This document shows, in pieces, positions 5,472 to 64,000 of a DNA stretch of 64,000 nt (within the stretch, counting starts at the first letter, position 1; each line of letters begins with the position of its first letter). Source of the stretch: Streptomyces toyocaensis (GTDB lineage: Bacteria > Actinomycetota > Actinomycetes > Streptomycetales > Streptomycetaceae). A program made the translations under genes and the position numbers. The notes under the pieces are model-generated. The model searched no databases and was not told the DNA's origin. It saw only the letters and a list, made by a program, of their open reading frames with translations. The stretch is from assembly GCF_000725125.1 (NCBI RefSeq), contig NZ_JFCB01000019.1, positions 62,001-126,000 on the forward strand, given 5' to 3'.

Positions 5472-6950
5472 GTGCTCGACCAAGGCGCACCCCCGCACAA
5501 CGGCAGTCCCGCCGCCCCGCCGTCCCCGGGCGCCGGCGCGCGCCTCATGCGCCGCAAGCCCGTGGAACGCCTGGTGGCCGAGGGTGGCCAGGGCGAGGGC
5601 GGGTCCCTGCGCCGCTCCCTCGGGCTGTGGCAGCTGACCATGATCAGCATCGGTGCCACCCTCGGTACCGGCATCTTCGTGGTCCTCGGCGAGGCCGTGC
5701 CCAAGGCCGGCCCGGCGGTCACGCTGTCCTTCGTCATAGCCGGTCTGACAGCTCTGTTCTCCGCCCTCTCCTACGCCGAGCTGGCGGGCACCATCCCGGT
5801 CTCGGGCTCCTCCTATTCGTATGCGTACGCAACGATGGGCGAGCTGATCGCCTGGGTCTGCGGCTGGTGCCTGATGCTGGAGTACGGCGTGTCGGTCGCG
5901 GCCGTCGCCGTCGGCTGGGGCGAGTACCTCAACGAACTGCTCGACGGCACCATCGGCGTCACCATCCCGGCCGCGCTGTCCGCCCCGCCCGGCGACGGAG
6001 GCGTCTTCAACCTGCCCGCGCTGATCGTCGTCCTGCTCGCCATGGCCTTCCTGATGGGCGGCGCCCGCGAGTCCGCCCGCGCCAACACGATCATGGTCGT
6101 CGTGAAGATCGGCGCACTGGTGCTGTTCTGCGCCATCGGCGTCCAGGGCTTCCGCTCCGGCAACTACGAGAACTTCATGCCGCTCGGCATGGCCGGCGTC
6201 AGCGCGGCCGGCGCGACGCTCTTCTTCTCCTACATCGGGTTCGACGCCGCCTCCACGGCCGGTGAGGAGGCCAGGAACGCCCAGCGCGACCTGCCCCGCG
6301 CGATCCTGCTGTCGCTCGCCATCATCACCGCGCTGTACGTCCTGGTCGCCGCCGTCGCCGTGGGCGCCAAGCCCTGGCAGGACTTCACCGACTCCGAGGC
6401 CGCGCTCGCCCAGATCATGAGCGAGGTCACCGGCCAGACCTTCTGGGGCACCCTGCTGGCGTTCTGCGCCGTCATCGCCATCGCCAGCGTCGTCCTGACC
6501 GTGCTCTACGGCCAGACCCGCATCCTGTTCGCCATGTCCAGGGACGGGCTCGTGCCCAAGGCGTTCGGCAGGGTCAGCCCGAAGACCGGCACACCACGCA
6601 CCAACACCCTGATCGTCTCCCTCTTCTGCGGCGTGCTCGCCGCCGCGATCCCGCTCGGCCAGCTCGCCGACGCCACCAGCATCGGTACCCTGTTCGCGTT
6701 CGCCCTGGTCAACGTCGCCGTCGTGGTGCTGCGCCGGTCCCGCCCCGACATGCCGCGTACCTTCCGGGTGCCGCTGTCGCCGCTGCTGCCCGCCCTCGGC
6801 CTCGCGTTCTGCCTGTGGATGATGGGCAGCCTGTCCACCGTCACCTGGGTGGTCTTCGGTGTCTGGATGGCCGTCGGGCTCGTGTTCTACTTCCTCTACG
6901 GCTACCGCCGCTCCCGGCTCGCCGCACCGGCCACCTCAGAAGCGAAGTGA
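5472..6950 (+). CDS. APC-superfamily amino acid permease, cationic amino acid transporter type
   Basis: A 492-residue inner-membrane transporter with about 12 hydrophobic helices. The first carries the APC substrate/ion motif IGATLGTGIFVVLG. Later motifs include SYAELAGTIPVSGSSYSYAYATMGE and FFSYIGFDAASTAGEEARNAQRDLPRAI, both characteristic of CAT-family (YfnA-like) permeases for arginine, lysine and related amino acids. GTG at 5472 is preceded by AAGGAG at good spacing. An Lrp/AsnC regulator begins 10 bases after its stop, so the two are co-transcribed. The substrate is inferred from family type and from motif sharing with the davA-davB pair. Confidence 0.9.
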   Translation: MLDQGAPPHNGSPAAPPSPGAGARLMRRKPVERLVAEGGQGEGGSLRRSLGLWQLTMISIGATLGTGIFVVLGEAVPKAGPAVTLSFVIAGLTALFSALSYAELAGTIPVSGSSYSYAYATMGELIAWVCGWCLMLEYGVSVAAVAVGWGEYLNELLDGTIGVTIPAALSAPPGDGGVFNLPALIVVLLAMAFLMGGARESARANTIMVVVKIGALVLFCAIGVQGFRSGNYENFMPLGMAGVSAAGATLFFSYIGFDAASTAGEEARNAQRDLPRAILLSLAIITALYVLVAAVAVGAKPWQDFTDSEAALAQIMSEVTGQTFWGTLLAFCAVIAIASVVLTVLYGQTRILFAMSRDGLVPKAFGRVSPKTGTPRTNTLIVSLFCGVLAAAIPLGQLADATSIGTLFAFALVNVAVVVLRRSRPDMPRTFRVPLSPLLPALGLAFCLWMMGSLSTVTWVVFGVWMAVGLVFYFLYGYRRSRLAAPATSEAK

Positions 6951-6960
6951 ACCACCCGCA

Positions 6961-7413
6961 GTGCTGAACGATCTCGACGAACGCATCGTGCACGCCCTCG
7001 CCGAGGACGCCCGCCGCTCCTACGCGGACATCGGCCAGCTCGTCGGCCTCTCCGCGCCCGCCGTGAAACGGCGGGTGGACCGGCTGCGCGCCACCGGGGC
7101 CATCACCGGATTCACCGTCCGCGTCGACCCCGCCGCCCTCGGCTGGGAGACGGAGGGGTTCGTCGAGATCTACTGCCGCAGCAACACCTCCCCGGAGACC
7201 ATCCAGCGGGGCCTGGAGCGCTACCAGGAGGTCGTGTCCGCCTCCACCGTCACCGGGGACGCCGACGCGGTCGCCCAGGTCTTCGCCTCCGACATGCGCC
7301 ACTTCGAACGGGTCCTGGAACGGATCGCGGGCGAGCCGTTCGTGGAGCGGACCAAGTCCGTGCTGGTCCTGTCCCCGTTGCTGCGACGGTTCTCCTCGGG
7401 TTCGCCCACGTAG
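6961..7413 (+). CDS. Lrp/AsnC family transcriptional regulator
   Basis: 150 residues. The N-terminal helix-turn-helix (about residues 5-50, LDERIVHALAEDARRSYADIGQLVGLSAPAVKRRVDRL) is followed by a RAM/ligand-binding ferredoxin-like domain (GFTVRVDPAALG, VSASTVTGDADAVAQV). Start is the GTG at 6961, 10 bases after the permease stop; homology begins there, although the frame is open further upstream. It is the obvious candidate regulator for the permease and, through shared GCAACGAA elements, for davA-davB. Feast/famine regulators of this kind usually respond to the amino acid whose transport or breakdown they control. Confidence 0.93.
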   Translation: MLNDLDERIVHALAEDARRSYADIGQLVGLSAPAVKRRVDRLRATGAITGFTVRVDPAALGWETEGFVEIYCRSNTSPETIQRGLERYQEVVSASTVTGDADAVAQVFASDMRHFERVLERIAGEPFVERTKSVLVLSPLLRRFSSGSPT

Positions 7414-7446
7414 GCAGGCCCGCACCGGCGGCGTACGCTGGCTTTC

Positions 7447-8208
7447 ATGCGGAGTCAGGATGATTCCGGACATACGGTGATCGGCTCGTCGGCTGTTCCG
7501 AGTCTCCCCGTGTTCGTCGACTCCACCGGCAGGCGCGCGAGGATCCTCCGGCGCACCGGGTACGGCGTGGCCGGTACGGTGGCCGCCTACCTGGCGGTCC
7601 TGGGACTGAGCCTTATGGGGGCGACGCCCTTCGCGCCGGGCGCCCTCCTGCCACCCCTGCCCGGCGAGGCCACGGCGCCGACGGCGCCGACGGCGCCGGA
7701 ACGCCGGGGCCCGGACGACGGACCCCTGCCGCCCAGCGGCGTGCTCGACCCGGCGCGGAGCGGTCCCGGTGACGCGGGCGCGGCGTTCGGCCCGGGCACC
7801 CCGCCGGTGCCGCCGCTCCTGTCGCCCGGTGGGCCGCTCCTCACCCCGGCGGGCCCGCTCGTCCCCGGAGGCCCGGTGTCCACGGCCCCTCCCGCACCGC
7901 AGCCCCCCGGTACGGGAGCCCCACCGTCGTCGCAGGAGCCCGACGGCCCCGTCCCCGACGACCCGTCCGCACCCGCGCCCGACACGGGAAGCGACCCCGC
8001 CCCGCCGCCGGCCCCGGAGGAACCGCCGCCGGCCACGGACGGACCGCCGTCGGCTCCGGGCGAGCCGCCCGCCCCCGAGTCCCCGCCGGGAACGCCGCAG
8101 CCCGTCCCGCCCTCGGGTACCTACGAGCCCCCGCAGGCGCCGTCGGGTGCCCCGGACACCACGGGAGGCGCCCCGCCCGGTGACGTGCCCGCAGCCGGGA
8201 CGTCCTGA
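7447..8208 (+). CDS. Proline-rich single-pass membrane protein of unknown function
   Basis: 253 residues. A short cytoplasmic N-terminus with basic residues (RRARILRRTG) precedes one transmembrane helix (about residues 40-60, VAGTVAAYLAVLGLSLMG). About 190 residues of proline/glycine/alanine/serine-rich low-complexity sequence follow, predicted to lie outside the membrane and to be disordered. I recognise no enzymatic domain. Its TGA overlaps the ATG of the next gene (TGATG), so the two are translationally coupled. It probably serves the polysaccharide synthase, for example as a wall-spanning spacer or partner, but that is inference. Confidence 0.8.
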   Translation: MRSQDDSGHTVIGSSAVPSLPVFVDSTGRRARILRRTGYGVAGTVAAYLAVLGLSLMGATPFAPGALLPPLPGEATAPTAPTAPERRGPDDGPLPPSGVLDPARSGPGDAGAAFGPGTPPVPPLLSPGGPLLTPAGPLVPGGPVSTAPPAPQPPGTGAPPSSQEPDGPVPDDPSAPAPDTGSDPAPPPAPEEPPPATDGPPSAPGEPPAPESPPGTPQPVPPSGTYEPPQAPSGAPDTTGGAPPGDVPAAGTS

Positions 8209-10388
8209 TGCGCCGCCGTCCCCACCGCCCGGCCCGGCCCTCACGGACGCGAACCGGTCCGCGTCACCACCGGGCGTCCCCGCGGCCCCGGCACCGCTTC
8301 CGCATCGTCGTCCCGCTCGTCGTGCTGGCCTTCGTCGTCTCGGTACTGCTGACCGAGGGGTACACGACCCGGACCTTCCCCGGGGACCAGGAGGGGCGCA
8401 CCGGGCGGCCGGCCACCGGGGTGCCCCGGGAGGTCACCGGCGGCGGTCCGGTCGTCGACACCACCCGCGACCACCCGAGCACCTACCGGGTGCCCGACCG
8501 GACGGTCGTCCTCACCTTCGACGACGGCCCGGATCCCGTGTGGACGCCCCGTATCCGCGCCGTCCTCGACCGCCACGGCACGCCCGGCACCTTCTTCGTC
8601 ACCGGTCAGCAGGCGGTGCGCCACCCCGGGGTCCTGCGCGCCGTCATCCGCTCCGGCCACGAGATCGGCGTGCACACCTTCTCCCACCGGGACCTCTCCA
8701 CCCGGTCCGCGAGCGGCGTCGACCGCGAACTGGCGCTGACGCAGCTCGCCCTCGCCGGGGCCGCGGGCATCAACAGCTCGCTCCTGCGGATGCCCTACTC
8801 CTCGACGACCGCCGCCCTGGACCGGGCGGACTGGTCCGTCGCCCGGCACCTGGGTGACAAGGGCTACGTCCTGGCCTTCGTCGACCGGGACACGAGGGAC
8901 TGGCAACGGCCGGGAGCCCGCGCCATCGCCGACGCGGCCGCACCGGGCGCGCCGGGCCGGGGAGCGGTCGTCCTCATGCACGACGCGGGAGGGGACCGGT
9001 CCCAGACCGTCGAGGCCCTCGACGAACTGATCCCCCGGCTCCAGGCCCAGGGGTACCGCTTCACCACTCTCGCCGACGTCCTCGGCACCGACAGCCTCAC
9101 CAGCCCCGTCGACACCGGGACCCTGTGGAAGGGGCGGGTGTTCGTGGCCGCCGTGACCGTGTCGGGGACGGCCATGTCGGTCATCGGTGTGCTGCTGCTG
9201 GTCGTCGGATCCCTCGTCCTCGGCCGGTGCGTCCTGCTGCTGGTCCTCGCCCGCCACCACGCCCACCGGCGCCCGCACCACGCCCCCGGACCGCCTGTCA
9301 CCCGGCCCGTCAGCGTCGTCGTACCCGCGCACAACGAGAGCCTGTGCATCGCCAAGACGCTCCGCTCGCTCGCGGCCGGCGACCATCCCGTCGAGATCGT
9401 CGTCGTGGACGACGGCTCCGACGACGGCACGGCCGACATCGCGGAGTCACTCGGCCTCCATGCGGTCACCGTCGTCCGGCAACCGAACGGCGGCAAGGCC
9501 TCCGCCCTCAACACCGGCGTCCGGCGGGCCTCCCACGACCTCGTCGTCATGCTCGACGCGGACACGGTCTTCGCCCCCTCGACCGTCCGGCGTCTCGTCC
9601 AGCCGTTCGCCGACCCCGCCGTCGGTGCCACCGCCGGCAACGCCAAGGTCGGGAACCGGCGGGGTCTGCTCGGCCGTTGGCAGCACATCGAGTACGTCAT
9701 GGGCTTCAACCTCGACCGTCGCATGTACGACCTGCTGCGCTGCATGCCCACCGTCCCCGGCGCCGTGGGTGCCTTCCGTGTCACTGCCCTGCGGGACGCC
9801 GGGACGATGAGCGGCGACACCCTCGCCGAGGACACCGACATCACCATGGCCCTGCACCGGGCCGGGTGGGAGATCCGCTACGTCGAGGACGCGCTCGCCT
9901 GGACCGAGGTACCGACCTCGCTGCGGCAACTGTGGCGCCAGCGCTACCGCTGGAGCTACGGAACCCTGCAGGCCGCGTGGAAACACCGGCACGCGCCGGC
10001 CGAGCGCGGCCACGCGGGACACTTCGGCCGCGTCGGCCTGCCGCTGCTGACCGTCTTCCAGATCCTCACCCCGTTGCTCGCCCCCCTCATCGACCTGCTG
10101 ACCGTCTACGGCCTGGTGTTCGGGAACCCGCTCGTCACCCTGCTGGCGTGGACCGGCGTGCTGGCCGTGCAGACCGTCTGCGCGGCCTACGCCTTCCGTC
10201 TCGACGGGGAGAGCCTCCGGCCGCTGTGGGCGCTCCCGCTGCAGCAGTTCGTCTACCGCCAGCTCATGTACCTGGTGCTCGTCCAGGCCTGCCTCACCGC
10301 GGCCAACGGCTACCGGCTGCCCTGGCAGCGCCTCAGGCGCAGCGGCGACGTCGTGCTGCCGCCCCCGCTCTCCGCACCGGAACGATGA
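8208..10388 (+). CDS. Bifunctional polysaccharide deacetylase / family 2 glycosyltransferase
   Basis: A 726-residue membrane protein. After an N-terminal helix, a NodB deacetylase domain (about 95-290) shows the metal-binding TFDDGPDP and HTFSH motifs. A second membrane segment (about 305-340) leads to a processive GT2 domain (about 365-600) with VVPAHNES, VVDDGSDDG, the DAD metal motif, the AEDTD acceptor motif and QRYRW. More helices follow. The DAD, ED and QxxRW set is that of hyaluronan, chitin and PgaC-type synthases. Fusion with a deacetylase suggests a partly de-N-acetylated beta-linked N-acetylglucosamine polymer at the cell surface, as proposed for Streptomyces MatB. It is coupled to the upstream proline-rich protein. 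Confidence 0.92.
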   Translation: MRRRPHRPARPSRTRTGPRHHRASPRPRHRFRIVVPLVVLAFVVSVLLTEGYTTRTFPGDQEGRTGRPATGVPREVTGGGPVVDTTRDHPSTYRVPDRTVVLTFDDGPDPVWTPRIRAVLDRHGTPGTFFVTGQQAVRHPGVLRAVIRSGHEIGVHTFSHRDLSTRSASGVDRELALTQLALAGAAGINSSLLRMPYSSTTAALDRADWSVARHLGDKGYVLAFVDRDTRDWQRPGARAIADAAAPGAPGRGAVVLMHDAGGDRSQTVEALDELIPRLQAQGYRFTTLADVLGTDSLTSPVDTGTLWKGRVFVAAVTVSGTAMSVIGVLLLVVGSLVLGRCVLLLVLARHHAHRRPHHAPGPPVTRPVSVVVPAHNESLCIAKTLRSLAAGDHPVEIVVVDDGSDDGTADIAESLGLHAVTVVRQPNGGKASALNTGVRRASHDLVVMLDADTVFAPSTVRRLVQPFADPAVGATAGNAKVGNRRGLLGRWQHIEYVMGFNLDRRMYDLLRCMPTVPGAVGAFRVTALRDAGTMSGDTLAEDTDITMALHRAGWEIRYVEDALAWTEVPTSLRQLWRQRYRWSYGTLQAAWKHRHAPAERGHAGHFGRVGLPLLTVFQILTPLLAPLIDLLTVYGLVFGNPLVTLLAWTGVLAVQTVCAAYAFRLDGESLRPLWALPLQQFVYRQLMYLVLVQACLTAANGYRLPWQRLRRSGDVVLPPPLSAPER

Positions 10389-10549
10389 ACGGCGGCCGTG
10401 GGAAATGCCGGGCGGGATCCGGGGGGCCGGTCTAGCATGGGCTCCATGACCTGGCGACATTGATCCTTCCGCCGCGCCTCCCGAGGTCCGCCTCGGACGC
10501 CGCACGTCCTCGACGTCCGGTGTCCGAAACGCCCTCTTGGGAAGGCCTC

Positions 10550-11752
10550 ATGACTCTCACGCCCACGCGTGCCTCCGACGTCCGCGTGCGACGGCTGACG
10601 ACCACGCTGTACGGCTACTCGTTCCTCGAAGAGTTCGTCCTCCTCTACCCGGTGTACGCGCTGCTGTTCAGCGACACCGGTCTTTCCGTCTGGCAGATCT
10701 CCTCCCTGTTCGCCCTGTGGTCGGTCACCGGCGTGCTGCTGGAGGTCCCCTCCGGCGTCTGGGCCGACGCGGTCTCCCGCCGGCTGCTGCTGTGGCTCGG
10801 CCCTCTGCTGACCGCCGCAGGCTTCGCCCTGTGGGTGCTGCTCCCGTCGTACGGCGCCTTCGCCGTCGGCTTCGTCCTGTGGGGTGCGGGCGGGGCGCTC
10901 GGCTCCGGCGCGCTGGAGGCGCTGGTTCACGACGAGCTGGAGCGGATCGACGCGGCCGACCGTTACGCCCGGATCATGGGGCGGGCCAGGGCCGCGGGTC
11001 TGGTCGCCGTGATGGCGGCGATGGGACTCGCCGGTCCCGTGCTCACCTGGGGCGGTCACACCGCCGTCGGCGCCGCCAGCGTGCTGGTGTGTCTGCTGGC
11101 GGCCGCCGCGGCACTCCGGTTCCCCGAGCACCGTTCCCCGGCCGAGGGGCACGAGAGCTGGACGGCGACCCTGCGCGCCGGACTCGCCGAGGCCCGCGCC
11201 GACCGGTCCGTGCGGGGGGCGCTGCTCCTGGTCCCGGCCGTGAGCGCGGTCTGGGGTGCCCTCGACGAGTACACACCGCTGCTGGTCCGGGCCACCGGGG
11301 TGGCCGACGGGACGGTGCCCTGTCTGCTCCTGCTGATCTGGGCCGGCGCCACCGCCGGAAGCCTGCTGGCCGGGGAGGGGGAGCGGCTCGGTACGAGGGG
11401 TCTCGCCGCCGTGCTGGCCTTCGCCGGACTCGCCCTCGCCGTGGGCGCGGCCGACGGCACCCCGTCGGGGCTGGTCCTCGTCGCCCTCGCGTTCGGTGGC
11501 TTCCAGGCGGCGACCGTGCTGGCCGACGCCCGGCTCCAGCGGCGCATCGAGAACACCCGGCGGGCCACCCTGACCTCGGTCGCGGGACTGGGCACGGAGC
11601 TGGCGACGATCGCGGTCTTCGGAGGTTACGCCCTGGTGGCCTCGGGGACCGCGCACGCCACCGCCTTCGCGGTGTGCGCGGTGCCGTACCTGGCGACGGC
11701 GGCGCTGCTGCTGGCCGGCGGGAGAGCCGGGGCCGCCACGCCACGGGCGTGA
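10550..11752 (+). CDS. MFS transporter
   Basis: A 400-residue polytopic protein with about 12 helices. The loop 2-3 region GVWADAVSRRLLLWLG is a recognisable MFS motif A variant, and the N-terminus YSFLEEFVLLYPVYALLFSDTGLS resembles small MFS proteins annotated as drug or metabolite exporters. I chose ATG 10550 (TLTPTRASDV) because a GGGAAG site lies just upstream and homologues begin there, although the frame extends 30 codons further back. It appears monocistronic. The substrate is unknown. Confidence 0.85.
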   Translation: MTLTPTRASDVRVRRLTTTLYGYSFLEEFVLLYPVYALLFSDTGLSVWQISSLFALWSVTGVLLEVPSGVWADAVSRRLLLWLGPLLTAAGFALWVLLPSYGAFAVGFVLWGAGGALGSGALEALVHDELERIDAADRYARIMGRARAAGLVAVMAAMGLAGPVLTWGGHTAVGAASVLVCLLAAAAALRFPEHRSPAEGHESWTATLRAGLAEARADRSVRGALLLVPAVSAVWGALDEYTPLLVRATGVADGTVPCLLLLIWAGATAGSLLAGEGERLGTRGLAAVLAFAGLALAVGAADGTPSGLVLVALAFGGFQAATVLADARLQRRIENTRRATLTSVAGLGTELATIAVFGGYALVASGTAHATAFAVCAVPYLATAALLLAGGRAGAATPRA

Positions 11753-12131
11753 CGCGTCCGCCGCCGCTCCGGTGGGGGCGAGCGTCCGACGCCTGCGGCG
11801 CGGCCGCGGGTCGGGTGGGGGCTGGTGCAGCGGCCGCTGTCGGTGGGTGGGTCGGGGGTGTCCGTCCTCGGACTGGCGCGACGGCGTCGCCGGGAAGGGC
11901 CGGCGGCGCGGACGCGCCGGCCACTGCGGGCGAACGCCCCCGCCCCTCCCGTTCCCGCGGGCGGTCGTGCCGCGGGGCGGCACGGGTGGGCGCGACGGCA
12001 CCCCGTAGGCGCCGGGCTGCGCGAACACCCCCGGCCCGCACCAACCCGGGGCACCTCGCAGGCGCGGAGCACCATGACCCGCCCCCGGCCCGCCGGGATC
12101 ACGGGCCCCTGACCCGCGCGCCCGGCCTCGT
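11753..12131. other. Gene-free GC-rich gap between the MFS gene and davA
   Basis: No supportable gene on either strand. The frames that stay open here are arginine/proline-rich antisense artefacts without ribosome sites. The right end of the gap (from 12132) holds the repeated GCAACGAA elements and the davA promoter described separately. Confidence 0.5.
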
Positions 12132-12190
12132 GCAACGAATCGCCGCGCATCCCACCGCGGACGCAACGAACCGCTCACCGGCGCGCAACA
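12132..12190. promoter_or_regulatory. GCAACGAA elements upstream of davA (candidate Lrp/AsnC sites)
   Basis: Two exact GCAACGAA copies (12132-12139 and 12163-12170) and one partial copy (GCAACA, 12185-12190) are spaced 31 and 22 bases apart, close to three and two helical turns. They end nine bases before a plausible -35 box, the position expected of activator sites. The same word occurs upstream of the cationic amino acid permease at 5269. Binding by the Lrp/AsnC protein encoded at 6961-7413 is inferred. Confidence 0.45.
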
Positions 12191-12198
12191 GCTCCTCC

Positions 12199-12228
12199 TT
12201 GTCCCGCCGAGCCGCCCGACCGTACCGT
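12199..12228 (+). promoter_or_regulatory. Candidate davA promoter
   Basis: TTGTCC (12199-12204) and TACCGT (12223-12228) are separated by 18 bases and lie about 45 bases before the davA start codon. The -35 is a poor match to TTGACA, which fits a promoter that needs an activator. Confidence 0.4.
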
Positions 12229-12271
12229 CTATCTGGCCCCCTGAACCCCCGCGTACCGGTGAGGAACACGC

Positions 12272-13060
12272 ATGCGCACCGCCCTGCTCCAGAGCTCCGG
12301 CCGGCCCGGATCCGTCGTCGAGAACCTCAAGGTCCTCGACGAGGCGGCCGGCCGCGCCGCCGCCGCGGGCGCCGGGCTCCTCGTCACCTCGGAGCTGTTC
12401 CTGACCGGGTACGCGATCGGCGACGACCTCGGCCGGCTCGCCGAGCCCGCCGACGGCGACGCGGCCGACGCGGTCGCGGAGACCGCCACCCGGCACGGCC
12501 TCGCCGTCGCGTACGGCTACCCGGAGCGCGACGGCGACACGGTGTACAACTCCGTCCAGCTCGTCTCCGCCGACGGCACCCGCCTGGCCAACTACCGCAA
12601 GACCCACCTCTACGGCTGCTTCGAGCGGGACCACTTCACCCCGGGGGAGCTGACCGTCGTCCAGGCCGACCTCGACGGCCTCACCATCGGCCTGATGATC
12701 TGCTACGACGTGGAGTTCCCGGAGAACGTACGCGCCCACGCGCTCGCCGGCACCGATCTCCTCCTGGTGCCCACGGCGCAGCTGCACCCGTTCCAGTTCG
12801 TCGCCGAGTCCGTCGTGCCGGTGCGGGCGTTCGAGAACCAGATGTACATCGCGTACGTCAACCGGGTCGGTCAGGAGGGCGAGTTCGAGTTCGTGGGCCT
12901 GTCCACGCTCGCGGCCCCCGACGGAGTCGCCCGCGCCCGGGCCGGCCGTGCCGAGGAACTCCTCCTGGCCGACGCCGACCCCGTCCTCCTCGCCGCGTCC
13001 CGCGAGAACAACCCGTATCTGCCGGACCGCCGCCCCGCCCTCTACGGGTCCCTCGTCTGA
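12272..13060 (+). CDS. davA: Nitrilase-superfamily amidase, probable 5-aminovaleramidase
   Basis: A 262-residue carbon-nitrogen hydrolase with the complete Glu-Lys-Cys triad: Glu41 (VTSELFLTGY), Lys110 (NYRKTHL) and Cys144 (LMICYDVEFPE). Overall sequence and length resemble Pseudomonas DavA, which hydrolyses 5-aminovaleramide to 5-aminovalerate. The gene directly downstream encodes a DavB-like flavoenzyme that would make the amide, which strengthens the assignment. ATG is preceded by GTGAGG. Specificity for the lysine-derived amide rather than another omega-amino amide is inference from the pairing. Confidence 0.85.
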   Translation: MRTALLQSSGRPGSVVENLKVLDEAAGRAAAAGAGLLVTSELFLTGYAIGDDLGRLAEPADGDAADAVAETATRHGLAVAYGYPERDGDTVYNSVQLVSADGTRLANYRKTHLYGCFERDHFTPGELTVVQADLDGLTIGLMICYDVEFPENVRAHALAGTDLLLVPTAQLHPFQFVAESVVPVRAFENQMYIAYVNRVGQEGEFEFVGLSTLAAPDGVARARAGRAEELLLADADPVLLAASRENNPYLPDRRPALYGSLV

Positions 13061-20132: not shown

Positions 20133-21323
20133 ATGGCCGCATCCCCGAGCACCGCCAGAGCCATCAACGACCGGCTCGCGCTGCGCCTGCTCCAGCAGGA
20201 AGGCCCGCTGACCGCGGGGCAGTTGAAGGAGCTGACCGGGCTGTCCCGGCCCACCGTCGCCGACCTGGTCGAACGTCTCACCGCGGCAGGTCTCATCGGG
20301 GTGGCGGGTGAGGCCGGGGAACAGCGCCGCGGCCCCAACGCCAAGCTCTACGGCATCGTGGCGGACCGGGCGCACCTCGCCGCGCTGGACGTCCGTACCG
20401 AGGGCGTCGCCGTGGCCGTGTCCGACCTCGTCGGCGACGTCCTGGCGGAGGCTTCCCTGCCCATCACCGGGGACGCGGGAACGGGGCCCGCGGTGGAGCA
20501 GGCGGTGGCGCTGGTCGAGCGGACGGCGAAGGAGGCGGGGGCCGACCGGCTGCACACGGTCGGGATCGGCGCACCGGGACTGATCGACCCCGCGAGCGGT
20601 GAACTGCGCGACTCCACGGGCCTGCCGGAGTGGCACCGCCGCCTGGTCGCCGCGCTCCAGGAACGGCTGCCCGAGGCCCGCGTCAGCGTGGAGAACGAGA
20701 CGAACCTCGCCGCGCTGGCCGAACAGCGCGACGGCGCGGCCCGGGACCGGGACACCTTCGTCCTGCTCTGGCTGGGGCACGGCACCGGCGCGGCCGTGGT
20801 CCTCGACGGCACGCTGCGCAGGGGCGCCTCCGGCGGCACGGGGGAGATCGGCTTCCTCCCGGTCCCCGGAACCCGGGGCCTGCCCTCGGCCACGGACTGC
20901 GAGGGCGGCTTCCACTCCCTGGTGGGGGCGGCTGCGGTCGCGGACCTGGCGGCGGAGTACGGCCTCGTCGCGGAGCCCGGTGCCGAGCCGGTGGCGGCGG
21001 GGGCGGTGCGGGCCGCCGTCGCAGCGGCCGGGCCCGCCTCGGCAGGGGCACGCTTCCTCGACACCCTCGCCGACCGGATCGCGGTGGGTGTCGCGTCCGT
21101 GGTCGCGCTGCTGGACCCCGGACACGTGGTCCTGGGCGGTGAGGTGGGGCAGGCCGGCGGCGAGGCACTGGCCGCGCGGGTTCGGGACCGCCTGGCCAGG
21201 ATGTCACCGCTGCCCGCCGACGTACGGCCCAGCACCCTCGGTGGCGGCGCGGTGCTGCGCGGAGCGCTGCTGACGGCCCGCGACCAGGCCCAGAACGAAC
21301 TCTTCGGCGAACCCGGCCACTGA
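20133..21323 (+). CDS. ROK family transcriptional regulator
   Basis: 396 residues. An N-terminal winged helix (ALRLLQQEGPLTAGQLKELTGLSRPTVADLVERL) is joined to a ROK sugar-kinase-like domain with GIGAPGLIDPASGEL, NETNLAALAE and GHGTGAAVVLDGTLRRGASGGTGEIGF. The zinc motif of ROK proteins (CxCGxxGCxE) is not preserved: the equivalent stretch reads TDCEGGFHSL, so zinc binding is doubtful. ATG 20133 follows a GGAAGGA site. Probably a repressor of the divergent MFS gene. Confidence 0.9.
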   Translation: MAASPSTARAINDRLALRLLQQEGPLTAGQLKELTGLSRPTVADLVERLTAAGLIGVAGEAGEQRRGPNAKLYGIVADRAHLAALDVRTEGVAVAVSDLVGDVLAEASLPITGDAGTGPAVEQAVALVERTAKEAGADRLHTVGIGAPGLIDPASGELRDSTGLPEWHRRLVAALQERLPEARVSVENETNLAALAEQRDGAARDRDTFVLLWLGHGTGAAVVLDGTLRRGASGGTGEIGFLPVPGTRGLPSATDCEGGFHSLVGAAAVADLAAEYGLVAEPGAEPVAAGAVRAAVAAAGPASAGARFLDTLADRIAVGVASVVALLDPGHVVLGGEVGQAGGEALAARVRDRLARMSPLPADVRPSTLGGGAVLRGALLTARDQAQNELFGEPGH

Positions 21324-56437: not shown

Positions 56438-57283
56438 TCACGCCACGCGGAACTGTTCGTCCCGGGCGTCGCTGAGGAACATCTGCCCCGGTGCGTGCGT
56501 GATGGCGAACGGCGGGCGGGAGGCCCTGACCGCGGCCTGCGGGGTCACCCCGCACGCCCAGAACACCGGGATGTCGTCCGGTGCGAAGTCCACCGGGTCG
56601 CCGAAGTCCGGGCGGCCGAGGTCGTCGATGCCCAGTCCGAAGGGGTCGCCGCAGTGCACGGGACCGCCGTGCACCGCGGGGAGCAGGCTGCTCTCCCGGA
56701 TCGCCGCGGAGAGCAGTCCGGGCGGCACCGGCCGCATGGACACCACCATCGGGCCGCTCAGCCGCCCCGCCGGGCGGCACTGCCAACTCGTCACGTACAT
56801 GGGAACGTTGCGGCCCTGCTGGACGTGCCGGATCGGAACGCCCGCCGCCGCCAGCGCCCACTCGAACGTGAAGCTGCAGCCGATCAGGAACGACACCAGA
56901 TCACCGCGCCAGTGCGCCCGCACGTCCGTCGGTTCGTCCACCAGCTCGCCGTTCTCCCACACCCGGTAGCGCGGCAGATCGGTGCGCAGGTCGGCGCCGT
57001 CGGCGAGGACGGTGGTCACCGACCCGGCGTCGGTGACGTCCAGGACCGGGCAGGCCTTGGGGTTGCGCTGGCAGAACAGCAGCATGTCGTACGCCCAGTC
57101 GGCGGGCACCGAGATCAGATTGGCCTGTGTGTGTCCCGCGGCCACCCCGGCCGTGGGGCCCGTGAGGCCCTCCCGGAAGCGTGCGCGGGCCGTGCGCGGG
57201 CTCCACGCGCCGGCGCTGTCGTCGGCCAGGGGCACAGGACGGTCGTCCACGACGGTCGGTGTGCGGTCGTCGGCGGGGTTCAC
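56438..57283 (-). CDS. DUF1445 putative hydro-lyase / D-glutamate cyclase-like protein
   Basis: 281 residues. Family signatures include [59 protein letters not shown] and [13 protein letters not shown]. The animal homologue is a D-glutamate cyclase that makes 5-oxo-D-proline. Linkage to pxpABC suggests this protein feeds oxoproline to the oxoprolinase. GTG 57283 has GGAG upstream and overlaps the transporter stop (GTGA). Confidence 0.9.
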
Positions 57284-58599
57284 TGCAGCTCCTTCCCGCG
57301 CGTCTCCGGCAGCCCCAGCAGTGCCAGGGCGGCGAGGCCGTAGCCGATCGCGCCGAAGACCAGCGCCCCGCCCACGCCCCAGCCGTCGGCCAGGAAACCG
57401 ACCGTCGTCGGGAAGACGGCGCCCACGGCACGCCCGGTGTTGTACGTGAAGCCCTGCCCCGTGCCGCGTACCGCCGTCGGGTACAGCTCGCTCAGGTAGG
57501 AGCCGAATCCGCTGAAGATGGCCGACATGCAGAACCCGAGCGGGAAACCCAGGACCAGGACCAGGGTGTTGGCGCCGCTGGGGATGTTCGCGTAAGCCAG
57601 GACGCAGACGGCGGACAGCAGGGCGAACAGCCAGATGTTGCGCCGGCGGCCCAGCCGGTCGGTGAGCCAGCCGCCGGTCAGGTAGCCGATGAAGGCACCT
57701 GAGATGAGGAACGTCAGATAGCCGCCGGTGCCGACGACCGACAGCTCGCGCTCCGTCTTCAGATACGTGGGCACCCAGGTGGCGAGCGTGTAGTAACCGC
57801 CCTGGACGCCGGTGGACAGCAGCACGGCGAAGAGCGTGGTGCGCAGCAGCCCCGCCCTGCCCGGCCGGTCCGGCCGGAAGATCGCCGCGAACGAGCCCCT
57901 GTGGGCGCTCCTCTCCCGCGCCGCGGCCGCCTGGGGAGCGTCCCGCACGCTGCGCCGCACCCACACGACGAGCAGCGCGGGCAGCGCGCCGGTCCAGAAC
58001 ATCACCCGCCAGGCCAGGCCGTCGTCCACCAGCGAGAAGATCATCGTGTACACGATCACGGCGAGCGCCCAGCCCACGGCCCAGGCGCTCTGGACCGCTC
58101 CGAGGGTGCGTCCGCGGTGCCGGGCGCTCGCGTACTCCGCGACGAGGATGGCGCCGACCGCCCACTCGCCGCCGAAGCCGAGGCCCTGGAGGGCACGGAA
58201 CACCAGCAGCGTCTCGTAGGTGGGCGCGAAGCCGCAGGCCACCGTGAACACCGCGTAGGTGACCACGGTCACGAGCAGGGCCTTCACCCGGCCCACGCGG
58301 TCCGCCAGGACCCCCGCGAGGGCGCCGCCGACCGCCGAGACCACCAGGGTGACGGTCGTGAGCAGGCCGGTCTGACCGCTGTTCAGATTGAAATAGGCGG
58401 ACAGCGCGACCATGGTCAGCGGCAGTGTGAAGTAATCGTATGAATCCAGGGCATAGCCGCCGAAAGCGCCGCCGAAGGCGCGTCGGCCGCGCGGCCCCAG
58501 CGCGCGCAGCCAGCCCAACGCCCCGTCGTGGGCGGTGGTTCCGGTCGGTGCGGGGCGTGGTTCGCCGGTCAGGGCCTTCGGTGGAGGGGTCGCGCTCAT
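57280..58599 (-). CDS. MFS transporter of the oxoproline/D-glutamate operon
   Basis: 439 residues, about 12 helices, sugar/metabolite:H+ symporter type: [61 protein letters not shown] and the C-terminal [14 protein letters not shown]. It is the first gene of the leftward operon with DUF1445 and pxpABC, so the likely cargo is 5-oxoproline, D-glutamate or a similar acid. ATG 58599 follows GAGGTG. Confidence 0.92.
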
Positions 58600-58666
58600 G
58601 GGCACCTCGCAGAGGGAGGACGAAGGGTGCGGGAAGGGATGAGCCGTGCCGTGTGGAGCAAGGTAG

Positions 58667-58685
58667 AGGATCGTTGAACGATCCT
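58667..58685. promoter_or_regulatory. Perfect 9-1-9 palindrome, probable GntR operator
   Basis: AGGATCGTT (58667-58675), one central G, then AACGATCCT (58677-58685). It lies between the divergent transporter operon (start 58599) and the GntR gene (start 58734). An overlapping second repeat, TTGAA (58674-58678) with TTCAA (58685-58689), shares its right arm. Its place between the two starts suits repression of both. Confidence 0.65.
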
Positions 58686-58733
58686 TCAATACTCGTGTTG
58701 TCTCGTTCTTCGGTGTGCGATTGAATTCCGGGC

Positions 58734-59438
58734 ATGACGGAGCAGCTGAGCGGACTGGCCGACGACCGGGCCCTGTTGGGCCGTACCAGCACCGCGGAGC
58801 GGGTCGCGGACATCCTGCGGAGCCGGATCGCCGAGGGCTACTTCCCGCCCGGCACCCGGCTGTCGGAGGACAGCATCGGCGGGGCCCTCGGCGTCTCCCG
58901 CAACACGCTGCGCGAGGCGTTCCGCCTGCTCACGCACGAACGGCTGCTCGTCCACGAACTGAACCGGGGTGTCTTCGTCCGGGTGCTCACCGTCGAGGAC
59001 GTGGAGGACATCTACCGCACCCGGCGGCTCGTCGAGTGCGCCGTCGTACGCGGCCTGGGCGACCCGCCCTACGGGCTTGACGCGCTCGCCGGGGTCGTGG
59101 AACAGGGGCGCAGGGCGGCGCGCGAAGGTGACTGGAAAGCCGTGGGTACGGCCAACATCCACTTCCACCGGGAGCTGGTGGCGCTCGCCGCAAGCGAGCG
59201 CACGGACGAGCTGATGCGCAGCGTCTTCGCCGAACTGCGCCTGGCCTTCCACGTGGTGGACGAGCCCGAGCGGCTGCACGAACCGTACATCGCGCGAAAC
59301 GTCGCCATTCTGGAAGCCCTTGAGGCGGGCCGGCGGGAGGAGGCCGAGCGCCTGCTCGCGGCGTACCTCGACGTGTCGCTGGAGCGCGTGGTGGAGGTGT
59401 ACCGGCGCCGGGTGGGGGAGGAGGAGCACGGCGGCTGA
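58734..59438 (+). CDS. GntR family regulator, FCD (FadR-like) subfamily
   Basis: 234 residues. Winged helix (about 18-85; [52 protein letters not shown]) and an all-helical FCD effector domain. That domain has the metal/ligand positions [22 protein letters not shown] and the late histidine region [18 protein letters not shown] regulators usually bind organic acids. Its divergent neighbours are the oxoproline/D-glutamate operon, so an acid from that pathway is the likely effector. Confidence 0.94.
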
Positions 59439-59542: not shown

Positions 59543-61069
59543 GTGACTTCGCCTGCATCGACGGACAGCGTTCCGCCCCAGCTCAGCGCGGGGCCGCGGC
59601 CCGCGCCGGGCCCGGCCGCCGACGAGGGTCTGGCGCGGCGGCTGCGCGCGCTCGCCTGCACCGCGCCGCTGCACGACCTCGACGCGCGCAAGGCCAACCT
59701 GGCCGGTGAGTACTCGGTGTACGGCATGGCCGAGATCGCCCTCGCCGCCATCGACCTGGTCACGCTGAACATGGACTTCGACACGGGCGCCGACCACGAC
59801 CAGGTCGTCGCCCGGCTCATCCCGCGCATCGCCGCCCAGGCCCCGCGCCGTCCCGCCGCCGAGCACGAGCGCGTGGCCCGCTGGGTCCTGGAGAACCTGA
59901 TCAACGTCGGCAGCGTCGACCGCGGCTTCCGCGCGGTGTACGGCGTGTTCGGAGCGGACGGCACCTATGTCCGCCGCGACTACGACTTCAAACTGGTCGA
60001 GGAGGTCCCCGGCCCCGGCGGCACGGTGTACCTGCGGACCACGGACGAGGCGGTCAACGTCCTGGTCGGCGCCCTGGACACCGATGTCACCAGCGCGCAG
60101 ATCGCCGCCGAGGTCAAGCTGGAGGTGCTGATCAGGCGGGGCAGGCTCGCCGACGCCCAGCTCGCCGCCGAGCAGGCCCGCTACCGCACCGTGCAGTACT
60201 CCGAGACCCTGCGCCGGGCCCTGGAGGCGACCCGTCGCAACGTCCGCGCGGTGGACTGGCTGAGCGCCGTGCCCGACATGATCGCCGAGGCCCTCGACCA
60301 CGTGGCCGACCGGTACCGCCACGAGAACGCGATCCTCACCAACATCCGCAAGGCCCGCGACGAGTCCGAGGATCCCGGGCACAAGCGCCGCGCGGCCGAG
60401 CTGGTGGACATCGTCAAGGACTGCATCCGGCGCCACACACAGCTGCAGTCCCGGCTCCTCGAGGCCGGCCCGCTGTTCCGTGCCGAGCAGGACCGGCAGG
60501 CCTTCGCCAACCCCACGTCCACCTCCGGCACCGACCTCTACGGCCATCTCCTGGCACCCCTGCTGCCCCTGCCCGTGGAGCGGGCGTCCCGGGTCACCGA
60601 CGCCTTCTTCGCCCACGGCACCGGGCTGCGCACCCCGGTCTCCGTCCGGGTCGCCGACCTCGTCGAGATACTGCTGACGCCGCCCGTGGAACGTGAGCAC
60701 CTCGGCGCGGAGATGCCGGAACCCGACCTGATCGCCACACCCGACGACAGCCGCTTCAGCGAGGAGCAGCTCGCCGCCGCCACCGAACTGCTGGACCTGC
60801 CGGCCGACGCGCCGCGCCGGCTGTCCGGGCTGCTCGCCGACGCCCGCCGCCAGGACCCCGAACTGCCCTACCTGGTCGCCCTGCTGGCGATCCACGCCGC
60901 CAGCCCGCCGTTCGGCACCGCCTACCGCCAGGGCGAACGGAAGCTGCTGTTCGCCGTGGACGACGGCACCGACCTCGTCGATCCCGAGTTCGGTGGTGCC
61001 GACCTCATCGTGGGCACGGCCCTGCTGGACGCGGCCGGCATGGCCGCCGACCGGACGGAGGCGGCATGA
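59543..61069 (+). CDS. MukF/MksF/JetA-like (kleisin-type) protein of an SMC operon
   Basis: 508 residues, soluble, mostly helical. The N-terminal part (about 25-200) looks like winged-helix sequence (HERVARWVLENLINVGSVDRGFRAVYGVFG; LRTTDEAVNVLVGALDTDVTSAQIAAEVKLEVLIRRG). The middle (about 215-330) is long amphipathic helix (AEQARYRTVQYSETLRRALEATRRNVRAVDW onward). The C-terminal quarter again looks domain-like. Size, helical middle and position as first gene before a smaller protein and an SMC-like ATPase fit the kleisin subunits of MukBEF, MksBEF and Wadjet. The family assignment rests on architecture, not on a recognised domain. GTG 59543 is probably leaderless. Confidence 0.7.
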   Translation: MTSPASTDSVPPQLSAGPRPAPGPAADEGLARRLRALACTAPLHDLDARKANLAGEYSVYGMAEIALAAIDLVTLNMDFDTGADHDQVVARLIPRIAAQAPRRPAAEHERVARWVLENLINVGSVDRGFRAVYGVFGADGTYVRRDYDFKLVEEVPGPGGTVYLRTTDEAVNVLVGALDTDVTSAQIAAEVKLEVLIRRGRLADAQLAAEQARYRTVQYSETLRRALEATRRNVRAVDWLSAVPDMIAEALDHVADRYRHENAILTNIRKARDESEDPGHKRRAAELVDIVKDCIRRHTQLQSRLLEAGPLFRAEQDRQAFANPTSTSGTDLYGHLLAPLLPLPVERASRVTDAFFAHGTGLRTPVSVRVADLVEILLTPPVEREHLGAEMPEPDLIATPDDSRFSEEQLAAATELLDLPADAPRRLSGLLADARRQDPELPYLVALLAIHAASPPFGTAYRQGERKLLFAVDDGTDLVDPEFGGADLIVGTALLDAAGMAADRTEAA

Positions 61070-61121
61070 CCGCGCGGGCAGCAGACCGTACCGACGTTCC
61101 CCACAGCGAGGAGTCCCGACC

Positions 61122-62003
61122 GTGACCGAGCACGTCGAGTGGAGTGAGCCGGAGGCCGCGGCCGCACCGGCGAGCGCCGCCGTCACGCCCGCCGACGCCG
61201 CGGACGCGGCGCGGCTCGTCGCCTTCGGCCTCCAGCCCAAACTGCAGCCCGCCCGCGACCAGGAGTACGCCGACCTGCTGCGCCGCTACCGCGAGGACCC
61301 CCCGTTCGCGCGGCTCGCCGACGCCGTGGCCACCGGGCTCGGGCTGATCGTGCTGGAGGTGTCCCCGCGCGCGGGCATGGCCGTCACCGCCGCCGAGGAC
61401 TCCGTCTTCGCCGTCCGCATGGGCGACTACGCGCGCCGTACCTCCGCCGACGGCGGTGACCGGTTCCTGCACGGGCTCGCGCACCTCGCCGTCGCCGCCA
61501 TGGCCTTCCCGCGCCCCGAGGACCTCGCCGACGACGGCTACATCGGGCGCGTCACGGTCAACGGCGTCGACGCCTTCGTCCGCCAGGCCTGCCACCGCCT
61601 GGAGGAGCGGGCCGCCGAACAGGGCGAGAACACCGACCCGGCCAGCGACACCCCCGGCCTGGAGGCCGCCTGGAGGATCTGGGCCAGACGCAGCGCCACC
61701 GGCGCCACCAAGGACGCGCGCCGGCTCGCGGGCTCCACCACCGGCATCGTGGCCAAGGCGGTCGCCTTCCTCACCGACTCCGGTTTCCTCCAGCGCACCG
61801 GCGACGACAACGGCGGCACCTACCGCACCACGGCCCGCTACCAGCTCCAGGTCCGCGACATGGCGGGCAGCGCCGCCCTCGCCGAACTGCTGGAGCTGGG
61901 CGTCGTCCCGGTCACCGACGGCACGCCCACCCTGCTGCCGCCCCAGGACGGCGACGACCTGGAACTGGTCGCCGACGCCGGCCTGCCGTTCCACTCCGCC
62001 TGA
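61122..62003 (+). CDS. MukE/MksE/JetB-like protein of an SMC operon
   Basis: 293 residues. After an acidic/Ala-rich N-terminus come helical segments (YADLLRRYREDPPFARLADAVATGLGLIVLEVSPRAGMAVTA). A C-terminal winged-helix-like part follows (GSTTGIVAKAVAFLTDSGFLQRTGDDNGGTYRTTARYQLQVRDMAG), where a recognition helix is followed by a beta-wing. MukE-type subunits are of similar size and consist of winged helices that bridge kleisin and SMC heads. GTG 61122 follows GAGGAG at eight bases. It comes 52 bases after the first gene. Confidence 0.72.
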   Translation: MTEHVEWSEPEAAAAPASAAVTPADAADAARLVAFGLQPKLQPARDQEYADLLRRYREDPPFARLADAVATGLGLIVLEVSPRAGMAVTAAEDSVFAVRMGDYARRTSADGGDRFLHGLAHLAVAAMAFPRPEDLADDGYIGRVTVNGVDAFVRQACHRLEERAAEQGENTDPASDTPGLEAAWRIWARRSATGATKDARRLAGSTTGIVAKAVAFLTDSGFLQRTGDDNGGTYRTTARYQLQVRDMAGSAALAELLELGVVPVTDGTPTLLPPQDGDDLELVADAGLPFHSA

Positions 62004-62038
62004 ACCCCCCACCTCACGAAGCCTCACGAGAGTCCGCC

Positions 62039-64000
62039 ATGTACGAGCTGTCCCGGGTCCGCCTCTACTCCATCGGGCCGGCCGGTGCGCGCTACGCCGA
62101 CACCGTGCTCGACCTGCGCGGTGTCGGCGGGGTCGTGCCGGACCCCGCGCCGGCGCAGGCGGAGTTCTTCGAGGAGGAGCCCGTCGGCCCGCCGCGCCGT
62201 CCCGCCCCCGCCGGGGTGCTCTTCCTGGAGAACGGCGGCGGCAAGTCCGTCCTGCTGAAACTGATCTTCTCCGTGATGCTCCCGGGCCACCGCAACACCC
62301 TCGGCGGCGCCAGCTCCGGTGTACTGCGCAAGTTCCTGCTCGCCGACGACTGCGGCCACGTCGCGCTGGAATGGCAGCACGTGCAGACCGGGGAGTGCGT
62401 CGTCGTCGGCAAGGTCAGTGAATGGCGGGGCCGTCAGGTCTCCAACGACCCCAGGAAGTTCGCCGAGGCCTGGTACTCCCTGCGCCCCGGCCCCGGTCTC
62501 GGCCTCGACAACCTTCCCGTCGCCGAGTCCACGGCCGTACGGCCGCCCGCCGAGGGCCAGTCGGGCGCACGGGGGCGGCGCCGCACCATGAAGGGCTTCC
62601 GGGACGCCCTCACGGAGGCCGGCAGGAACTACCCGCACCTGGAGGTGCACTGGGAGGAGATCCACGAGCGCTGGACCGAACACCTGGGCGACCTCGGTCT
62701 CGACCCGGAACTCTTCCGCTACCAGCGGGAGATGAACGCGGACGAGGGAGAGGCCGCCGGCCTCTTCGCGGTCAAGAAGGACTCCGACTTCACCGACCTC
62801 CTGCTGCGCGCCGTCACCGACACCCGCGACACCGACGGACTCGCCGACCTCGTCAGCGGCTTCGGCAACAAGCTGGGCCGGCGTGCCGAACTGATCGCCG
62901 AACGGGACTTCACCGCCGGTTCGGTCGACCTGCTGGGCCGGATCGTCGAGGCCGCCGAGGCCCGCGCCCGCGCGCGGGAGATCCACACCGCGGCCGAGCG
63001 CCGCACCCGCACCCTCGCCCGCCGGCTCTCCGCCCGCGGCGCCCGGGAACGTGTCCGCGCGGCAGACTTGACCGGGCGCGTCACCGCCGCCGCGTACGCC
63101 GTCACCCACGCCGAGTCGGCGCGCGGGCACAGCGCGCTGATCTCCGCCGAACTCGCCTACCGGCACGCCTCCCTGGCTCTCGCCGCGGCCGAGAAGTCCG
63201 CGGCGACCCAGAAGCGCGAACTCGCCGACGCGCGCACGCTGTACTCGTCCTGGCAGGCCGCCGAGGCCGTACTGCGCCACCGCGCCGCCGCCGACCGCGT
63301 GGCCCGCGTCTCCGCCGCGATCCGGGAGGCCGAGCGCGACGCGGCCCCCGCGCTGGCCGCCCGGGCCGAGGCCGCCGTCGACCTGGTGCGCGCCCTGCAC
63401 GCGGCCGCACGGAACGCCGACAACCTGGCCAACGAGGAGGAGGCACGGTCGGCCGCCCTCCAGGAGGCCAGTGACGGGGCCCACCGCGACGCCACCGCCG
63501 CGGCCACCGAGGCACAGCGGGCCCGCAGCGAGATCGGACACCTGCGACAGCGGCTCACCGAGGTCGAGCAGGAGACCGCCGAGGCGGTACGCGCCGGCTG
63601 GCTCGACGACAGCGCCCCCGACGCCGACCCCGCCAGGGCCGCCCTCGCGGCGAGCGACGCCGAGAAGACGGCGGTCGCCGCCTGGGACACTGCCCGCGAG
63701 GCGTCCCGCCGGGCCACCGAGCACGCGCGCGAGGCGGCCGCCGCGGAGAACCGCGCGGAACTCACCGCGGCCCGCGCGGCCGACGCGGCCACGGCGGCCG
63801 AGCGCGCCCACGAGGGCGAGCGCCGTACGGCCGAGGCCCTCGCGGCCGAGCAGCGGCTGGCGGAGCTGCTGAGCCTCCCCGGAAGCCCCACCGGGCGGCG
63901 GACCGGTGTGCCGGCTCAGCGCATGGACGCCGACCGCGCCGCGGCTGATTCAGGCGCCCGGCCGTCCCCGGGTGAGGAGGCCCTGACCGCCGAACAACTC
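62039..64000 (+). CDS. SMC/MukB-like coiled-coil ATPase, truncated at the right edge
   Basis: 654 codons are visible and the frame is open at the edge. The N-terminus YELSRVRLYSIGPAGARY leads to a P-loop, LFLENGGGKSVLLKLIF (Lys69), unusual in having Glu-Asn before GGGKS. A globular head continues to about residue 270. Then a very long Ala/Arg/Glu-rich stretch with heptad-like pattern begins (EAAEARARAREIHTAAERRTRTLARR) and runs to the end of the window. This is the N-terminal head plus first coiled-coil arm of an SMC-like protein. Hinge, second arm, signature motif and Walker B lie outside. It comes 35 bases after the preceding gene. Confidence 0.82.
   Translation, partial: MYELSRVRLYSIGPAGARYADTVLDLRGVGGVVPDPAPAQAEFFEEEPVGPPRRPAPAGVLFLENGGGKSVLLKLIFSVMLPGHRNTLGGASSGVLRKFLLADDCGHVALEWQHVQTGECVVVGKVSEWRGRQVSNDPRKFAEAWYSLRPGPGLGLDNLPVAESTAVRPPAEGQSGARGRRRTMKGFRDALTEAGRNYPHLEVHWEEIHERWTEHLGDLGLDPELFRYQREMNADEGEAAGLFAVKKDSDFTDLLLRAVTDTRDTDGLADLVSGFGNKLGRRAELIAERDFTAGSVDLLGRIVEAAEARARAREIHTAAERRTRTLARRLSARGARERVRAADLTGRVTAAAYAVTHAESARGHSALISAELAYRHASLALAAAEKSAATQKRELADARTLYSSWQAAEAVLRHRAAADRVARVSAAIREAERDAAPALAARAEAAVDLVRALHAAARNADNLANEEEARSAALQEASDGAHRDATAAATEAQRARSEIGHLRQRLTEVEQETAEAVRAGWLDDSAPDADPARAALAASDAEKTAVAAWDTAREASRRATEHAREAAAAENRAELTAARAADAATAAERAHEGERRTAEALAAEQRLAELLSLPGSPTGRRTGVPAQRMDADRAAADSGARPSPGEEALTAEQL

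Follow-up and report, generated by a model that had tools for sequence, protein, structure and literature searches.

In a stretch of 64,000 nucleotides from Streptomyces toyocaensis (contig NZ_JFCB01000019.1, positions 62,001–126,000; hereafter the window), the three genes at the right-hand end form an operon that is the JetA-JetB-JetC motor core of a type III Wadjet system, in a branch without the nuclease. Within Wadjet, JetABC is described as the sensor and JetD as the cutter (portions of PMC10586767). Here JetD is absent from the operon and was not found in the genome. We consider it probable that this core, minus its nuclease, is kept as an inherited housekeeping machine, namely a condensin-like loop extruder and type III parallel of MksBEF.

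A preliminary description of the window had proposed a three-gene operon (508, 293 and more than 654 residues, short spacings), and this operon is real. Using PADLOC, the product of gene 1 was identified as JetA3 (PDLC00567, 620 bits) and that of the full gene 3 as JetC3 (PDLC00588, 1404 bits over 1550 aa), and 146 of 150 genomes of the same genus, S. toyocaensis included, have a JetA with at least 81% identity. These strong matches rule out a new family of structural maintenance of chromosomes (SMC) proteins unrelated to Wadjet, and the earlier view of gene 3 as an uncharacterised SMC type unlike known Wadjet has to be given up. Gene 2 had no PADLOC match, which weighs little because the JetB of a JetD-bearing locus (L173; L and G numbers are our labels for loci and genomes) was silent too. 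Pfam and NCBIfam gave nothing of weight for any of the three proteins, and no Muk family was matched at E up to 1 by genes 1 and 2 or by full-length gene 3. Full-length JetC matched no NCBIfam family at the same threshold, hence neither SMC_prok_B (TIGR02168) nor TIGR02680. A TIGR02680-type system (Wadjet II) is ruled out, as neither the N-terminal part nor the full JetC has an NCBIfam match. Searching solved structures (PDB) by sequence with the JetA profile, the JetB profile and JetC gave no matches. The genome has a canonical SMC gene elsewhere (contig C10, 926 bits), and the jetC locus was not among the six genome matches to TIGR02168 (47 of 65 candidates scored).

Gene 3 had been called an SMC-like ATPase, and the full protein agrees with this: it has an N-terminal P-loop (VLFLENGGGKS) and a C-terminal head with the signature FSGGQ (residue 1415) and the Walker B motif LFLDNP (residue 1450). 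The claim that this P-loop and N-terminus are unlike any Wadjet JetC fails for type III. The P-loop LENGGGKS is found in 11 of the 15 JetD-bearing loci, in 45/45 core loci (those of the near-universal copy described below) and in 111/117 loci overall. FSGGQ is present in all 43 core loci holding that part of the gene and in 108/109 loci overall, LFLDNP in the same 43/43, and LDNP in 109/109 loci with or without JetD. LENGGGKS, LDNP and FSGGQ are thus features of type III. The Walker B motif of SMC proteins normally reads Asp-Glu, as opposed to Asp-Asn in type III JetC, and judging from the sequences the usual catalytic glutamate seems to be replaced throughout type III JetC.

Structures of the gene 1 and gene 2 products were predicted from alignments of 34 rows, with low confidence (predicted local distance difference test, pLDDT, 63.4 and predicted template modelling score, pTM, 0.36 for gene 1; pLDDT 66.6 for gene 2). 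For the gene 1 model, Foldseek found only two chains below E 0.001, both from MukBEF entries: 9gm7_C (E 5.3e-06, probability 1.00, template modelling (TM) score 0.23/0.25) and 7nz2_C1 (E 6.2e-05). The TM-scores were 0.21–0.25 and the root-mean-square deviation (rmsd) of the alignments was over 30, a value to be expected only with differently hinged domains. A VIA search ranked MukBEF, MukEF or MukF chains 1–8 (Z 13.7–14.4), led by 9gm7_D (Z 14.4, 232 residues aligned, rmsd 9.3), with helical CorA chains (Z 12.7) and the JetABCD chain 8q72_E (Z 9.2, rank 42) further down. The predicted fold supports a kleisin as the product of gene 1, in line with the kleisin-like assignment made earlier.

For gene 2 the top Foldseek match was a JetABC chain, 8dk1_E of the PA14 entry (E 6.1e-03, probability 0.98, TM 0.24/0.35), and MukE-MukF chains came next. 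An unrelated acyltransferase stood at rank 5, E. coli JetABC at rank 6 and ScpAB at rank 10, and no match of gene 2 was below E 0.001. With VIA, winged-helix chains of the origin recognition complex (ORC) came first (Z up to 6.9) and JetB reached Z 6.0. Chains in multi-chain entries were assigned to MukF, MukE or JetB from their length, not from the search output. A homologue of gene 2 occupies the equivalent place in JetD-bearing Wadjet III loci. Because of the fold matches, this place and this homology we take the gene 2 product to be a putative KITE (kleisin-interacting tandem winged-helix element) subunit; the earlier winged-helix-like assignment is consistent with the weak match of the model. 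In the type III JetB alignment, inspection by eye did not show the IFDR motif known from type I JetB (PMC10586767).

Reading onward in the contig rules out a JetD gene just past the window edge. Directly 3' of jetC there is no JetD, and a convergent IclR-type gene is found there instead. The fourth, JetD-like gene which the preliminary description thought might follow within 5 kb is therefore absent, and searches of the whole genome (84 contigs, completeness 100) were negative as well. JetD_C (PF09983) had no match in S. toyocaensis, with a positive control in Corynebacterium glutamicum. As PF09983 missed a JetD directly after JetC in another genome (G007), and so misses true type III JetD when used alone, our absence claims rest on two further models. 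A1 is a JetD-III profile built from ten JetD proteins (eight from beside JetABC copies and two from JetD match loci) with an invariant Glu-Asn and Asp-x-Asp; it had no match in the genome (71/71 candidates scored). Nor had the PADLOC JetD3 model PDLC00594 (4/4 candidates scored), which was silent in all 14 control genomes, yet detects the JetD of fetched loci. All five JetD proteins tested were JetD3 by PADLOC (302–392 bits). For a PF09664 profile run on the S. toyocaensis genome the controls were silent. Using tblastn, JetD queries found nothing in the S. toyocaensis locus (L002) or in 19 other loci of the genus (L077–L095). An earlier phmmer scan had mixed true JetD with out-of-frame open reading frames over JetC, as happens at high GC content; of its matches only those lying past JetC were kept, and tblastn took its place.

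Where JetD does occur in these bacteria, it adjoins other, patchily distributed JetABC copies and never the core copy wherever its place is visible. The genus-wide A1 search (at most 13 candidates scored per genome) gave a match in 13/150 genomes. Eleven of these matches are strong. JetA matches more than once in 13 genomes, which comprise all 11 with a strong A1 match plus G119 and G128; the latter two were left out. In five of the strong cases (G007, G032, G086, G107 and G138) JetD directly follows a second JetABC; in the other six at least 0.9 Mb separates it from the core JetA (five genomes) or it is on a separate contig (G022). PF09983, which also detects other Wadjet types, matched in 18/150 genomes, and 128/150 had a match with neither PF09983 nor A1. 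In the family sample JetD3 (PDLC00594) matched in 13/121 genomes, ten of them at 170 bits or more. Eight of these ten are found 4.5–4.7 kb past a non-core JetB, on its strand (a second copy in seven genomes, the sole copy in G543), and none is beside a core copy. The other two are from G384, with the second JetB near a contig end, and G323, with no second JetB reported.

The core copy is close to universal. A JetA match was found in 147/150 genomes of the genus, S. toyocaensis included, and 134 of these 147 have exactly one. The genomes without a match are G050, G073 and G079, two of which are only 78–82% complete. JetB matched in 120/121 family genomes and in 17/17 genera, with only a distant copy in genus g146 (G543), no match in G597, and broken or partial matches in G545, G596 and G603. 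Among the 19 same-genus loci, JetB and JetC follow JetA in 18, a NIT kinase match lies within 20 kb in 13 and a GntR gene is directly upstream in seven. The description of the surroundings as conserved backbone, with no obvious island, is borne out. One of the 19 loci (L093, in G012) is a decayed core copy, with a JetA match over residues 9–464 and neither JetB nor JetC found behind it. In another (L092, in G010) JetC is split over two frames (6585–12577), the second opening with a phenylalanine-rich stretch, which may be an assembly fault.

With the nearest fetched relative as reference, the ratio of non-synonymous to synonymous substitution rates (dN/dS) is 0.087 for JetA, 0.125 for JetB and 0.132 for JetC. 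The single similarly close JetD-bearing pair (L099–L100) gave 0.175, 0.274 and 0.300, respectively; core values also reach 0.30 against more distant relatives, and dS is compressed by high GC content. By sequence, the core motors are intact and under purifying selection. Of the 33 genomes assembled as a single contig, 31 were used to place the locus on the chromosome, leaving aside G012 (JetB and JetC lost) and G079 (no match). The locus lies at a median relative distance of 0.152 from the closer chromosome end, and in 28 genomes it is read toward that end.

For relatives beyond the genus, a contig scan covered the best 80 of 564 confirmed loci, mostly from Prauserella, Amycolatopsis, Pseudonocardia and Streptomyces. 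Using tblastn with 17 JetD queries, JetD was found in 15 of 120 loci. Remnants of JetD 3' of JetC are ruled out by the lack of any tblastn trace at E 1e-3 in the 105 loci without JetD, of which 11 do not extend far enough downstream for a call and one (L093) has no JetC. In a quick LG+G4 tree of 66 rows, with long-branch warnings, the Streptomycetaceae loci (18 rows) and the JetD-free loci of a second family, f18 (7 rows), each form one clade (SH-aLRT 100); JetD-free clades also occur in Pseudonocardiaceae. JetD state changes at least eight times on this tree, a count that does not tell gain from loss. In Prauserella and Amycolatopsis many JetD-free loci have a gap-pgk pair a few genes downstream (both genes confirmed by Pfam in L127, by appearance in the other loci), and the same holds for gap at a JetD-bearing locus of Tamaricihabitans. 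In Amycolatopsis rifamycinica, JetD (L153:16692–17735) directly follows JetC, and in the tree the locus is surrounded by near-identical relatives without JetD; in several of these the next gene comes immediately after JetC. This JetD was either kept or regained. In Cellulomonas timonensis (L168), a genus outside the main families, JetABC has no detected JetD and another gene follows JetC.

Housekeeping DNA organisation is the simplest reading, because the motor is intact, the cutter is gone and the set is kept by almost all species sampled. From the anatomy and distribution of the operon we infer a chromosomal function. JetA (kleisin) and JetB (KITE) would bridge JetC dimers that bind DNA and hydrolyse ATP, and the JetABC complex would extrude loops of the chromosome, as MukBEF and the MksBEF of Pseudomonas aeruginosa are thought to do. 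Without JetD, a finished round of extrusion could not lead to cleavage. Since the genome also has a canonical SMC, JetABC would be a second condensin beside Smc-ScpAB. The data suggest a defence machine that was converted into a second chromosome organiser, its ancestor presumably having carried JetD. We put forward only tentatively the wider proposal that type III Wadjet became a second condensin through loss of JetD, probably several times, and that it is now near-universal in Streptomycetaceae chromosomes, where it and Smc-ScpAB divide the work between them.

Several observations weigh against a housekeeping condensin. Both predicted models are of low confidence with low global TM-scores, and the fold match of gene 2 is weak (best E 6.1e-03, with the VIA score of JetB below those of the ORC chains). 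The core copy has been lost in places, as G121 has only a distant JetA and G012 a JetA with neither JetB nor JetC behind it; because of such losses the core operon is not essential. In a class-wide search only 60/394 genomes had a JetA match (40 in the same genus, 19 in family f18 and one in f46). The complex may have kept the ability to partner JetD, since related loci of Tamaricihabitans (L176) and A. rifamycinica (L153) carry this nuclease. In 26/31 single-contig genomes the locus falls within the outermost 20% of the chromosome, and this position is compatible with defence because Wadjet is enriched near the ends of Streptomyces chromosomes (parts of PMC10482375).

The preliminary description had left the choice between a condensin and a defence system. 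The former is favoured because the nuclease is missing and presence is near-universal, and the latter is disfavoured in its usual cutting form. Defence might also work without a nuclease, if JetABC loaded onto plasmid or phage DNA and silenced, compacted or mis-segregated it by complete loop extrusion, leaving it uncut. The operon belongs to a defence family by profile and lies towards the chromosome ends, which fits such a role, but a single match in 134 of the 147 genomes and low dN/dS do not resemble the patchy JetD-bearing copies (JetD-III in 13/150), and we regard this explanation as unlikely. A complete Wadjet could alternatively draw on JetD in trans or on an unrelated effector. JetD-III is diverse, PF09983 overlooked the G007 JetD beside JetC, some genomes hold JetD of other kinds (PF09983, 18/150), and an unrelated nuclease would lie outside the reach of our searches. 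Against this stand the zero matches of three JetD models in S. toyocaensis and the 128/150 same-genus genomes negative for both PF09983 and A1, and a nuclease encoded elsewhere seems to us very unlikely. That the operon is a decaying, now functionless remnant of defence would agree with the missing JetD and with the loss of JetB and JetC at the core place in G012. This is highly improbable given that the motifs are intact in the examined core loci, that dN/dS is far below 1 and that 146/150 genomes have a core-type JetA.

A housekeeping condensin derived from Wadjet would be a type III case in well-sampled bacteria, and a possible second condensin is indicated in Streptomyces. JetD-bearing and JetD-free relatives stand side by side, in Amycolatopsis at one locus, which makes the change from cutting plasmids to a housekeeping motor role directly testable. 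In Streptomyces venezuelae, smc disruption had no significant effect on growth rate or on differentiation but altered spore size and chromosome arm contacts (parts of PMC8410768); if our reading is true, a second condensin could help to explain why smc deletion is so well tolerated in Streptomyces. Counts of defence systems may also misscore core loci, either as Wadjet or not at all.

The features of the locus are collected in the table below. The three genes are co-directional, with intergenic gaps of 52 bp (genes 1 and 2) and 35 bp (genes 2 and 3). Of the neighbours scanned with PADLOC, only the IclR gene matched anything, with weak helix-turn-helix cross-matches (best 32 bits, CasR). In locus L177 a gene for a roadblock/LC7 protein (20708–21127) follows a kinase-like frame, an arrangement that we take to resemble a Streptomyces conservon. 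The neighbour in S. toyocaensis may be conservon cvn9.

Table. Coordinates of the operon and its neighbours in the window; positions with the prefix L002 refer to the locus as read onward in the contig.
Feature	Position	Strand	Remarks
MFS (major facilitator superfamily) transporter gene	57280..58689	-	upstream of the GntR-type gene
GntR-type regulator gene	58734..59438	+	5' of jetA; Pfam GntR and FCD
jetA-like gene, kleisin (predicted)	59543..61069	+	GTG start, 508 aa; PADLOC JetA3 PDLC00567, 620 bits; MukBEF-like predicted fold
jetB-like gene, putative KITE (tandem winged-helix)	61122..62003	+	GTG start, 293 aa; homologue at equivalent place in JetD-bearing loci; Foldseek
jetC-like gene, SMC ATPase	62039..64000 (654 codons in window)	+	ATG start; PADLOC JetC3 PDLC00588, 1404 bits (full protein)
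P-loop LENGGGKS, JetC residues 63–70	62225..62248	+	sequence
full jetC	L002:6040-10692	+	1550 aa; stop outside the window
IclR-type gene			convergent, ends 22 bp past jetC; IclR_C, 140 bits
NIT-HATPase sensor kinase gene	L002:11930-15616		large; after the IclR gene

Wadjet has been reported from 42% of Actinobacteria (parts of PMC10482375); the words JetA and JetD are absent from the main text of that paper, and the words Wadjet, MksB and MukB from PMC12511625. No second Streptomyces condensin is named in parts of PMC8410768 and PMC13121528, and a near-universal type III Wadjet motor in Streptomycetaceae was not found in our searches of an open-licence library. With JetD-bearing type III Wadjet the operon shares the JetA3 and JetC3 profiles, the gene order A-B-C, the LENGGGKS P-loop, the LDNP Walker B and a homologous KITE, but JetD is neither at the locus nor found in the genome, and the set is near-universal in the family rather than patchy. 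Smc-ScpAB likewise pairs an SMC ATPase with kleisin and KITE partners, yet in S. toyocaensis a separate gene (C10) encodes the canonical SMC, and JetC has no NCBIfam match. The MksBEFG of C. glutamicum is also an actinomycete JetABC-like motor beside SMC, but it includes the nuclease MksG and works on plasmids (as given in parts of PMC10123090), and C. glutamicum is positive for JetD_C where the S. toyocaensis genome is negative. MukBEF and the MksBEF of P. aeruginosa are kleisin-KITE-SMC sets without a nuclease, and the predicted kleisin fold here is MukF-like; the S. toyocaensis proteins differ in having no sequence-family match to MukB, MukE or MukF and in belonging to the type III branch. 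Both MukBEF and MksBEF have been proposed to have a past as defence systems, with most work to date on type I, and P. aeruginosa MksBEF, which works on the chromosome, likely arose through loss of JetD (passages of PMC10586767). A Wadjet-like motor without its nuclease is therefore already known as a kind from the MksBEF precedent, and the lack of JetD in the Streptomyces operon is presumably an event separate from that of MksBEF.

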